64,000 bases of DNA from Candidatus Poribacteria bacterium. GTDB lineage: Bacteria > Poribacteria > WGA-4E > WGA-3G. The DNA lies in contig OY282374.1 in assembly GCA_958295815.1 (NCBI GenBank), forward strand, positions 2,004,856-2,068,855, written 5' to 3'. Positions 45,462 through 47,970 of this stretch are shown piece by piece. How positions within the stretch are numbered: the first letter of the stretch is position 1; every line of letters begins with the position of its first letter. The notes below the pieces were generated by a model. That model was given only the letters and a program-made list of their open reading frames with translations. It made no database searches and had not been told where the DNA came from. A program made the position numbers and the translations under genes.

Positions 45462-47201
45462 CTATTTTCTACTTCCTTCTTTTTTCAATTTCCTTCGTGT
45501 GTGCCAATACCCTAACTGTCGAAGATAATAACTAATGCTTTTGGGAATATTCTCGAATTCTGGCACAAATGGACATCTCCCACCTAAAATAACTAACTCC
45601 GATTTGGCACGCGTCATTGCGACATAGAAGGCCCGCCGCTCTTCTGCAAGATCACTATCGCGACGCGGGAAATAGCGGTCAAATGTGTTGTGGACAAGAA
45701 TAACCTTTTCCCATTCCCTTCCCTTTGCCTTGTGAATTGTTGTTACTTCAGCGGAAGTCGGGGGCTTAGCGAGTATATCTTGAATCTGTTTCGCCTCAAA
45801 ATTAGTTCGCACCAAAATAGCTGTTTCTTGTTGTGATTTCAACTCATTCAGAAGTGTGATTTCTACGGTTTCCTTGGTCGTTTCAATAGTTTTTATGTCT
45901 TGCTGTAGTGGGTTATGGGCGCGTAGGTTTTTGCGAATTCGGGGTGCATTTCGTTCAATCAAGGCTCTTGCGTGTTCAACGATCATTGATGTGGAGCGGT
46001 AGTTGCGCGTGATTTCATATCTCTTCACGTTCCGTTGTTCCGTAAATTCCTGCATCATCCGTGAGTTGCCACCACGAAAGCCGTAGATTGCCTGATCATC
46101 GTCACCGACAGCGAAGAGGTTATCTGAAAGGAGCGAAATAAGGCGAAAGTCGGCTGGGGCGATGTCTTGAAATTCGTCAACGAGTAGATACGGATATTTG
46201 TTGCGATAGGTCTGTCGAAGGTCAGGATGGGTCTCAAGGATGTTCGCAGCGTGGATAATCATATCCTCAAAATCGACAGCGTTCGCTTCGGTTTTGAGTT
46301 TCTCATATTTTACAGCAAATACCTGTGCCACACGATTAGTAAGAACCGTTGGTTTGAACAGACCTGTGGTAACCTGCCGCTTTGCTCGCATGATAATGTC
46401 TTTTATATCGTTGAAACTGTCGCGGAGGTGCTCAAAATCAGGGTCTTTATCGAGGTGTTCTTTATAGGGGATATTGAAGTGCTGACAGAACATTTCGAGG
46501 ATTAATTGGTTGCTATACTGTACCCGTAACGGATCTGCCCGATTAAATACGCTGGCGCGTTCGCTATAGAACGCAATCCAGTAAGCTTCGCGACGGTTTG
46601 CCTCTCTTCCATGGACCCATTCCAAGACTTCAAAGATGAACTGTGATTTACCTTCAGATCGGATCGCTTGCCGGAGTCTATCGTTTGATGAGTGACTAAA
46701 GTGCTCTTTTTTACGTCTATCTGGGTTCGTGGTCTGCCCAATATAACACCTACCAGTCTTTTGGTTCTCGATTTTATAAATGGCGACCAAGGTAGATGAA
46801 GTTTCGAGTTCAATTTGTTTCTGTTCTTCCGCAATGATTTTATCGATTTGCCCTGTCCAAATTTCAGGATATTCACTAAATCCGGCGCGCTTATAGTTTT
46901 GGGTGATGATGTCTTTTCCAAACGCGTGGAGCGTCCGGATTTCAGGTTTTTTGTAAATTTGAGACTTGTTTGAGAGGTGTGATGTGGCGAGTTCGCGTAG
47001 GATTCGCGTCTCCATTTCTTCGACTGCTTTCCTATTGAAAGCGATGGCGAGAATGTGTGGAGGAGGAATGTTGTGATTTTGAATAAGATTCAGAATCCGT
47101 GCTGTTACGACTGTGGTTTTGCCACTGCCGGGTCCCGCGATGACGATTGCCGGTCCCGCAACGTGATTAACGGCTTTTTCTTGGTTTCTATCAAGTTTCA
47201 T
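45462..47201 (-). CDS. UvrD/Rep-type helicase with inserted GIY-YIG nuclease domain
   Basis: A 579-residue superfamily 1A helicase. Walker A is AGPGSGKTT (22-30), motif Ia IAFNRKAVEEM, TLHAFG (90-94), motif II LLVDEFQD (339-346), motif III VGDDDQAIYGFRGG (365-378) and motif VI ERRAFYVAMTRAK (521-533). Between TLHAFG and the usual VDFEDM block lies an extra domain at residues 138-222 (bases 46536-46790). It reads IYKIENQKTGRCYIGQT, DRRKKEHF, REAYWIAFY and FNRAD, matching the GIY-YIG Tyr, Arg, Glu and Asn residues. So an active nuclease is inserted in helicase subdomain 1B. The ATG at 47201 has no strong ribosome site. DNA repair or defence role is possible. Confidence 0.88.
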   Translation of the reverse strand: MKLDRNQEKAVNHVAGPAIVIAGPGSGKTTVVTARILNLIQNHNIPPPHILAIAFNRKAVEEMETRILRELATSHLSNKSQIYKKPEIRTLHAFGKDIITQNYKRAGFSEYPEIWTGQIDKIIAEEQKQIELETSSTLVAIYKIENQKTGRCYIGQTTNPDRRKKEHFSHSSNDRLRQAIRSEGKSQFIFEVLEWVHGREANRREAYWIAFYSERASVFNRADPLRVQYSNQLILEMFCQHFNIPYKEHLDKDPDFEHLRDSFNDIKDIIMRAKRQVTTGLFKPTVLTNRVAQVFAVKYEKLKTEANAVDFEDMIIHAANILETHPDLRQTYRNKYPYLLVDEFQDIAPADFRLISLLSDNLFAVGDDDQAIYGFRGGNSRMMQEFTEQRNVKRYEITRNYRSTSMIVEHARALIERNAPRIRKNLRAHNPLQQDIKTIETTKETVEITLLNELKSQQETAILVRTNFEAKQIQDILAKPPTSAEVTTIHKAKGREWEKVILVHNTFDRYFPRRDSDLAEERRAFYVAMTRAKSELVILGGRCPFVPEFENIPKSISYYLRQLGYWHTRRKLKKEGSRK

Positions 47202-47346: not shown

Positions 47347-47637
47347 TTATTCCTCATAAATACTTGTCTGGACTTTAATCCATGAATCCCAATTGTGGTT
47401 CTCTGCAATACTCATAGCAAAATCCTTTGCTTTTTCCACTACATAATTTATTTTTTCAGGATCGGCATCTGGAGAATGACTACAGTGTAATAGAAGAGTT
47501 TTTCCATCCTTTCCAGGGAGATATATTATTGAACCGTCACTAAAGTCGAGATAAGGAAGGGTAGAATTTAGCAGAACCGTCAGCCATTCCAAACGGGAAG
47601 GGGTATATGATTCAAATCCTGGTGCTTTTTCGGACAT
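47347..47637 (-). CDS. Small hypothetical protein
   Basis: A 96-residue acidic protein without signal peptide or membrane helix (MSEKAPGFESYTPSRLEWL to WIKVQTSIYEE). The start is well supported by AAAGGAGATAAACG. Family unknown. It lies 15 bases after the coiled-coil gene and before the terminator, so they form one transcript. Confidence 0.6.
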   Translation of the reverse strand: MSEKAPGFESYTPSRLEWLTVLLNSTLPYLDFSDGSIIYLPGKDGKTLLLHCSHSPDADPEKINYVVEKAKDFAMSIAENHNWDSWIKVQTSIYEE

Positions 47638-47652
47638 CGTTTATCTCCTTTG

Positions 47653-47970
47653 CTATTTCTGAACAAGCAGGGTAACAATGATGCCTATGAGTGCCACAAG
47701 GCTTGTAATACCGAGAGCCATTAACGCCATTACTTGGTTTTTTATGCCCTTGAGGTCGTCCTTAAGATCTTTTTTGGTTTCCTTGATGTCATCTCTGAGA
47801 TCAGTTTTAACCTCTCTAATGTCTTTCTCAAGGTCTATTTTTACTTCTTTAACGCGGTCCTCTAAGTGGGATCTTACTTCAGTTAACTCTCTACTATATT
47901 CTTGTTCTTTTTGAGTTAGATAGTCTCCAAGTCCCGCAGTTATATCCTCACCTGATCTCCTGTGTTCCAT
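47653..47970 (-). CDS. Coiled-coil protein with C-terminal membrane anchor
   Basis: A 105-residue protein. Residues 20-78 form a charged coiled coil with recurrent KxDLxxDIxEVK elements (EVKIDLEKDIREVKTDLRDD, ETKKDLKDDLKGIK). A single hydrophobic helix MALMALGITSLVALIGIIVTLLV then ends the protein. This is tail-anchored geometry, with the coil in the cytoplasm. The start has TGGAGAAATT. Similar short proteins are often found as DUF1640-like or phage/transporter scaffolds; function unknown. Confidence 0.65.
   Translation of the reverse strand: MEHRRSGEDITAGLGDYLTQKEQEYSRELTEVRSHLEDRVKEVKIDLEKDIREVKTDLRDDIKETKKDLKDDLKGIKNQVMALMALGITSLVALIGIIVTLLVQK

Follow-up and report, generated by a model that had tools for sequence, protein, structure and literature searches.

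Helicases of the UvrD type move 3'-5' on single-stranded DNA, and in solved complexes their 1B subdomain lies near the duplex. In RecB, AddA and AdnA/B, a UvrD-type motor shares one polypeptide with a nuclease, which is a terminal PD-(D/E)xK domain. Rep and UvrD monomers are autoinhibited by their 2B subdomain, and the Rep monomer becomes active when 2B is deleted (PMC13238157). Nucleotide excision repair uses the GIY-YIG domain of UvrC for the 3' incision and UvrD for removal of the cut strand (PMC7835731). GIY-YIG domains have also been recorded in the same chain as a motor. Tlr8p of Tetrahymena contains a GIY-YIG domain and a putative superfamily 1 (SF1) helicase in one polypeptide, and HsdR of Methylococcus capsulatus has an internal GIY-YIG domain, an isolated, recent case in which a close homologue is uninterrupted (PMC1564403).

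The window analyzed here is a 64,000-nucleotide stretch of a Candidatus Poribacteria genome that encodes a protein of 579 amino acids. This protein has all motifs in common with the SF1A helicases UvrD, PcrA and Rep (PF00580, PF13361). These helicases have a 2B subdomain inside 2A, whereas the 579-aa protein has no 2B and carries, in an enlarged 1B, a GIY-YIG domain plus about 36 extra residues. It scored 212 bits against a PcrA equivalog cut-off of 911 (NCBIfam) and was far below equivalog cut-offs. As in RecB, AddA and AdnA/B, a UvrD-type motor and a nuclease domain are combined in one polypeptide, but no terminal PD-(D/E)xK nuclease was matched in Pfam at E values up to 1, and the protein ends about 46 residues after motif VI. 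In Tlr8p, a protein of a eukaryotic mobile element, the GIY-YIG domain follows the helicase on its C-terminal side, whereas the poribacterial domain lies inside 1B of a bacterial chromosomal gene. The likeness to HsdR is a GIY-YIG domain inside a motor protein; the poribacterial insert is instead fixed in its family, and no uninterrupted orthologue was found. DNA helicase IV of Escherichia coli (HelD) has a different N-terminal region and no GIY-YIG domain. One uninterrupted profile match over 299-539, with 241 residues against 261 model positions, suggests that HelD also lacks 2B. GajB of the Gabija system is a UvrD-type helicase too, and PADLOC GajB models matched the poribacterial helicase. 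However, GajB works with GajA, no such neighbor is present here, and the GIY-YIG part was not matched by the GajB models. Gabija was ruled out, as no gajA adjoins the gene.

A GIY-YIG domain within 1B of a UvrD-type helicase was not described in the titles and passages of the searched literature joining GIY-YIG with UvrD-like or SF1 helicases, a search that covered little of the subscription literature. The same literature yielded only a paper on mollicute symbionts for Poribacteria together with GIY-YIG.

Results

The helicase lacks 2B and has an enlarged 1B. The minus-strand reading frame (Table 1) was open throughout. Pfam matched UvrD-helicase (PF00580) at residues 4-389 (E 1.2e-60) and UvrD_C at residues 485-538 (E 2.5e-21). 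In an alignment with E. coli UvrD, a poribacterial UvrD and UvrDs of candidate phyla, the conserved SF1A motifs I, Ia, Ic, II, III, IV, V and VI of domains 1A/2A were all present. Besides the motifs in Table 1, DF-E was located at residues 308-314, III at 364-377, IV at 397-404 and V at 485-494. The original observation that all helicase motifs remain was borne out. The segment from motif Ic to the DF motif comprised 212 residues, compared with 91 in E. coli UvrD, which places the insert inside 1B as had been proposed. The excess consisted of about 85 residues of GIY-YIG domain and about 36 residues by which 1B is extended further. An enlarged helical part follows the nuclease. Poor conservation of the flanking 1B sequence leaves the exact junction of the nuclease uncertain. 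At the expected 2B site, only 5 residues separated QIQDILAK from EVTTIHKAKG, compared with 184 in E. coli UvrD. The loss of 2B goes beyond what was originally noticed, as do the insert-bearing tandem paralogues of relatives.

The AlphaFold2 model of the whole protein, built with 48 sequences, had a mean pLDDT of 81.8 and a pTM of 0.71. Confidence was mostly above 90 in the insert and lower in domain 2A. Because of the modest 2A confidence and this pTM, the model does not fix the position of the nuclease relative to DNA. The best PDB matches to the whole model were UvrD, PcrA and Rep (Deinococcus radiodurans UvrD 4c30/4c2t, PcrA 3pjr, UvrD 2is4 and Rep 1uaa). The genome (5.13 Mb, one contig) contained a single copy of the GIY-YIG helicase, and its other UvrD relatives were open frames of 755, 1151 and 1172 aa. 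The closest orthologues of the 579-aa protein were from Candidatus Poribacteria.

Table 1. Features of the helicase gene in the window and of its tandem paralogues in other loci
Feature	Position	Strand	Basis
2B-less UvrD-type SF1A helicase with GIY-YIG domain in 1B, 579 aa	45462..47201, stop codon included	(-)	open reading frame, Pfam, AlphaFold2, PDB matches
GIY-YIG nuclease domain, residues 138-222	46536..46790	(-)	Pfam, conservation, I-TevI alignment/fold
Walker A motif GPGSGKTT, residues 23-30	47112..47135	(-)	motif alignment
Motif Ic TLHAFG, residues 90-95, N-terminal border of 1B region	46917..46934	(-)	motif alignment
Enlarged 1B region, C-terminal part and return to 1A, residues 223-307	46281..46535	(-)	alignment and AlphaFold2
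Motif II LLVDEFQD, residues 339-346	46164..46187	(-)	motif alignment
Expected 2B subdomain site, residues 480-484	45750..45764	(-)	alignment with E. coli UvrD
Motif VI YVAMTRAK, residues 526-533	45603..45626	(-)	motif alignment
Tandem downstream paralogues, examples	L042:7293-11033, L046:7909-11724, L053:7288-9714, L064:6796-10827, L074:7461-11801, and others		
Second GIY-YIG copies, examples (ORF residues)	300-389 in L074, 238-319 in L073, 233-309 in L064		

The insert has the fold and the catalytic residues of GIY-YIG nucleases. The domain mapped exactly to the interval originally proposed for it, and the block of about 85 residues carried all GIY-YIG elements. Pfam matched GIY-YIG (PF01541) at residues 141-210 with an E value of 5.3e-10 and 39.9 bits, above the curated cut-off of 22.6. 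The best NCBIfam match of the insert was grpIintron_endo (TIGR01453) at residues 140-220 (4e-13), whose 49.8 bits were just below the cut-off of 56. Structure prediction, which had been suggested as a check, gave the canonical fold with the order b-b-a-a-b-a and a pLDDT of 90 when the insert was modeled alone. The top Foldseek matches were structures of the I-TevI catalytic domain (1ln0 at TM 0.80/0.82), followed by UvrC N-terminal domains at TM values of about 0.55. The insert profile also matched I-TevI among PDB sequences at 1e-5.

The catalytic-site residues Y142, Y153, R163, H167, N173, E205 and N220 were invariant in all 49 distinct orthologues. Six of them aligned with residues of I-TevI (Y142, Y153, R163, H167, E205 and N220 with Y6, Y17, R27, H31, E75 and N90, respectively), and N173 lies in the helix that follows. 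The numbers of the I-TevI residues are taken in part from the title of a matched PDB entry. The equivalence of R163 to R27 and of E205 to E75 follows from two deposited I-TevI sequences that read Ala at the R27 and E75 positions, respectively. All tested features of the GIY-YIG superfamily were present, i.e., the fold, the two motif tyrosines, the Arg, the Glu and the C-terminal Asn, the last of which occurs in most members. The insert is a complete GIY-YIG domain, for which metal-dependent cleavage is predicted. An ordinary 1B subdomain devoid of GIY-YIG residues, the finding that would have spoken against the domain, does not occur. Chance resemblance was ruled out by the score above the curated Pfam cut-off, the I-TevI fold match and the invariant residues.

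Both parts of the protein are under purifying selection, with a median omega of 0.090 for the helicase and 0.108 for the insert (NG86, 224 close and non-independent pairs). Invariant positions made up 35% of the insert and 0-39% of the other protein segments among the 49 distinct orthologues. The GC content was 0.458 in the helicase and 0.460 in the insert.

The insert is fixed at one site in one family. A search for the insert in other homologues found it at the identical site in all 49 distinct orthologues. The insert-bearing helicase was present in 54 of 59 genomes of the window's Poribacteria family (genera g1, g18, g19 and g20). It was absent from all 26 genomes that represented other families of the phylum, where three weak matches (E of about 1e-6) fell in frames of at most 325 aa. 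The insertion site is single, and the helicase has been inherited vertically together with its insert. Of the five negative genomes in the family, four have a completeness of 73-83%, and the remaining one, G022, is complete in one contig, belongs to the same genus as the window's genome and is close to it (purL 93% identical). In G022, the flanking genes were in order, the whole helicase gene was missing and tblastn detected no remnant, indicating that the gene is dispensable and can be lost whole. Among the family genomes examined, no orthologue lacking the insert alone was found.

In many loci the gene follows purL-purQ, with variable small genes between. The neighbors were a glyoxalase-like gene, small ORFs, purQ, purL and metabolic genes. 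Between purQ and the helicase, the loci L038, L040, L042, L043, L044, L053, L054 and L060 contained small variable genes, among them one of about 136-146 aa that resembles an HNH endonuclease by eye. In the window, two small ORFs lay at positions 47347-47970, just upstream of the helicase. One (96 aa) was not matched in Pfam, and the other (105 aa) encodes a coiled coil that has a hydrophobic segment at its C terminus.

Searches of phage and plasmid collections (tblastn) and an IMG/VR scan returned only low-identity UvrD-type homologues of the helicase. The helicase ORFs of the distant loci retrieved, viral ones included, had no GIY-YIG domain. The insert profile was also run against samples of four other phyla, which comprised 289, 379, 362 and 376 genomes. 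It returned four matches, each of them in a short frame (149-271 aa); an empty answer from such samples is weak evidence. Distant examples of the architecture may have been missed, because the pattern-based scan of genome contigs reaches mainly close relatives.

The nearest relatives of the insert outside the family are phage endonucleases. A first IMG/VR scan with the bare insert sequence gave no match. In a profile scan, the nearest relatives outside the family were phage GIY-YIG endonucleases, whose best-scoring frames had 235-377 aa and were up to 43% identical. I-TevI-type homing endonucleases share the catalytic fold (TM about 0.8) and all catalytic residues with the insert. In contrast to them, the insert is neither free-standing nor intron-borne; it is embedded in a helicase and vertically inherited. 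It stops at the catalytic domain and then passes into helicase helices, and a separate recognition tail (NUMOD, HTH) is absent, with no NUMOD found by Pfam. The source is likely the catalytic domain of a phage-type homing endonuclease, stripped of the recognition tail. An intein or a group I intron was ruled out, as there is no Hint domain, the insert has only about 85 residues, the frame is open and all orthologues carry the same insert.

Free-standing GIY-YIG endonuclease genes with NUMOD-like repeats and, by eye, phage-like surroundings were seen in a genome of the same genus, G018 (L219 and L220 on the 80-kb contig C3, where the gene is present twice, and L221 at C2:154500-158500). In the window's own genome, a 401-aa frame (L217, G000:C1:2078500-2082000) combined an N-terminal GIY-YIG with repeated HTH-like segments and adjoined an apparent IS1595-type transposase gene.

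Tandem paralogues carry intact and broken GIY-YIG copies. A homologous ORF was located just downstream of the helicase in eleven loci (L038, L042, L046, L052, L053, L056, L064, L070, L073, L074 and L076), some of which end at contig ends. Complete paralogues had at least 809 aa, up to an open frame of about 1700 aa, and consisted of the same helicase with one or, often, two GIY-YIG domains. In several of them, these parts were followed by a GrpE-like domain, with E values of 6e-23 to 4e-26, and by S1 repeats, whose E values went down to 5e-59. The occurrence of up to four S1 repeats with GrpE-like and GIY-YIG domains in one frame is a very unusual combination.

The second GIY-YIG copy had lost the equivalents of R163 and E205 in all aligned cases. 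The first copy kept Arg and Glu in every case, and its final Asn was lost or unaligned in a few. This indicates that the catalytic pair is kept selectively, and no other natural evidence speaks as strongly for selection on catalysis in the single-domain protein. Paralogues and single-domain proteins separated in the trees of both the helicase columns (support 1.0) and the insert columns (0.82), which is most simply explained by an insertion older than the duplication. The only strong conflict between the two trees lay inside one genus.

Discussion

The 579-aa protein is probably a bifunctional helicase-nuclease, with both activities putative, that is ancestral to one Poribacteria family. As all relatives examined retain the residues for cutting, the protein is very probably a real two-in-one enzyme rather than the product of a recent, accidental invasion. 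A true helicase-nuclease was one of two readings originally offered and is the better supported. The other, domain invasion by a homing-endonuclease-like element, holds for the origin of the domain (I-TevI fold, TIGR01453 and phage relatives). A current or recent invasion is not supported in view of fixation, vertical inheritance, equal GC content, the low omega of purifying selection and the lack of any insert-less allele among the genomes examined.

Could the domain nevertheless be selfish, having invaded the helicase gene and been kept by homing with no benefit to the cell? The homing-endonuclease type of the domain, its phage relatives and the recorded insertion into HsdR (PMC1564403) would fit. 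However, homing endonucleases are recognized by a patchy distribution with uninterrupted target alleles, whereas this insert occupies one site in 54 of 59 genomes, leaving no uninterrupted allele to home into, and has no NUMOD-type recognition tail. Moreover, homing enzymes tend to decay after fixation, but here the catalytic residues are all retained and the omega of the insert equals that of the host gene. A selfish domain is thus very unlikely. It is somewhat less improbable, though still quite unlikely, that the fold is catalytically silent and that its sole use within the enlarged 1B is in DNA binding or regulation. The persistence of second paralogue copies devoid of catalytic residues makes a noncatalytic role conceivable for this fold, but the invariance of Arg, Glu, both Tyr, His and Asn in the single-domain orthologues, and of Arg and Glu in every first copy, argues for catalysis. 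The paralogues also bear on a helicase-nuclease directed to RNA or RNA:DNA hybrids and tied to transcription or translation, as they carry S1 RNA-binding repeats and the GrpE-like domain. The 579-aa protein itself has neither, and nearly all UvrD-type motors and GIY-YIG nucleases that have been studied act on DNA. Residue conservation does not discriminate DNA from RNA as the substrate. An RNA- or hybrid-directed enzyme of this kind is extremely improbable.

An anti-phage or anti-plasmid effector, in which a GajB-like helicase with its own nuclease destroys invading DNA, deserves more weight but is still unlikely. The match to PADLOC GajB models (best E 7e-64) would fit, but these are UvrD models that match UvrD relatives generally. 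GIY-YIG is found in the known defense proteins PD-T4-3 and PD-lambda-1 (PMC10952713), small variable genes (HNH-like and antitoxin-like) adjoin the helicase in several genomes, and one complete genome has lost the gene. On the other side, neither gajA nor another defense partner adjoins the gene, no phage- or plasmid-borne copy was found, and inheritance was vertical in a housekeeping setting beside purLQ. Because of this inheritance and neighborhood, genome maintenance is favored as the cellular role over defense against mobile elements, but only marginally.

For the bifunctional helicase-nuclease, the following course of events is proposed. The GIY-YIG domain would have entered the helicase gene once, before the family diverged and before the tandem paralogue arose, and the I-TevI-type domain would since have been retained in 1B as a working, domesticated part. 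The motor, with its predicted 3'-5' translocation on single-stranded DNA, would engage a 3' single-stranded tail or a branched or nicked junction. Given the closeness of 1B to the duplex in UvrD relatives, the nuclease within it would be carried beside the junction and may cut or nick there, coupling incision to unwinding in one polypeptide. The loss of 2B would allow the monomer to unwind, as expected from the autoinhibitory role of 2B and the activating effect of its deletion in Rep. By analogy, the protein would join the same two kinds of predicted activity as the 3' incision by UvrC and the strand removal by UvrD. Replacement of UvrC was ruled out, as a UvrC-like frame (629 aa) and a protein that resembles the N-terminal part of UvrC (267 aa) are also encoded in the genome.

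A bolder version is possible but doubtful. The protein might be a single-polypeptide cut-and-unwind machine, in which a 2B-less motor free of the usual autoinhibition, with 1B rebuilt around a domesticated phage-type GIY-YIG domain, incises at the junction that it unwinds. Such a machine would be a compact analogue of UvrC 3' incision plus UvrD excision, and it would have given rise to the paralogue with two nuclease copies and GrpE-like and S1 domains.

Helicase-nuclease fusions are known, usually with the nuclease at an end. Here it lies inside 1B, near the contact of UvrD relatives with the duplex, in a protein that has lost the 2B brake. A natural control is provided by those paralogues in which one GIY-YIG copy is intact and the other catalytically broken. 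If active, the poribacterial protein would offer a simple model for the coupling of incision and unwinding in one chain, and it would clearly exemplify the domestication, within a chromosomal motor protein, of a homing-endonuclease domain of phage type.
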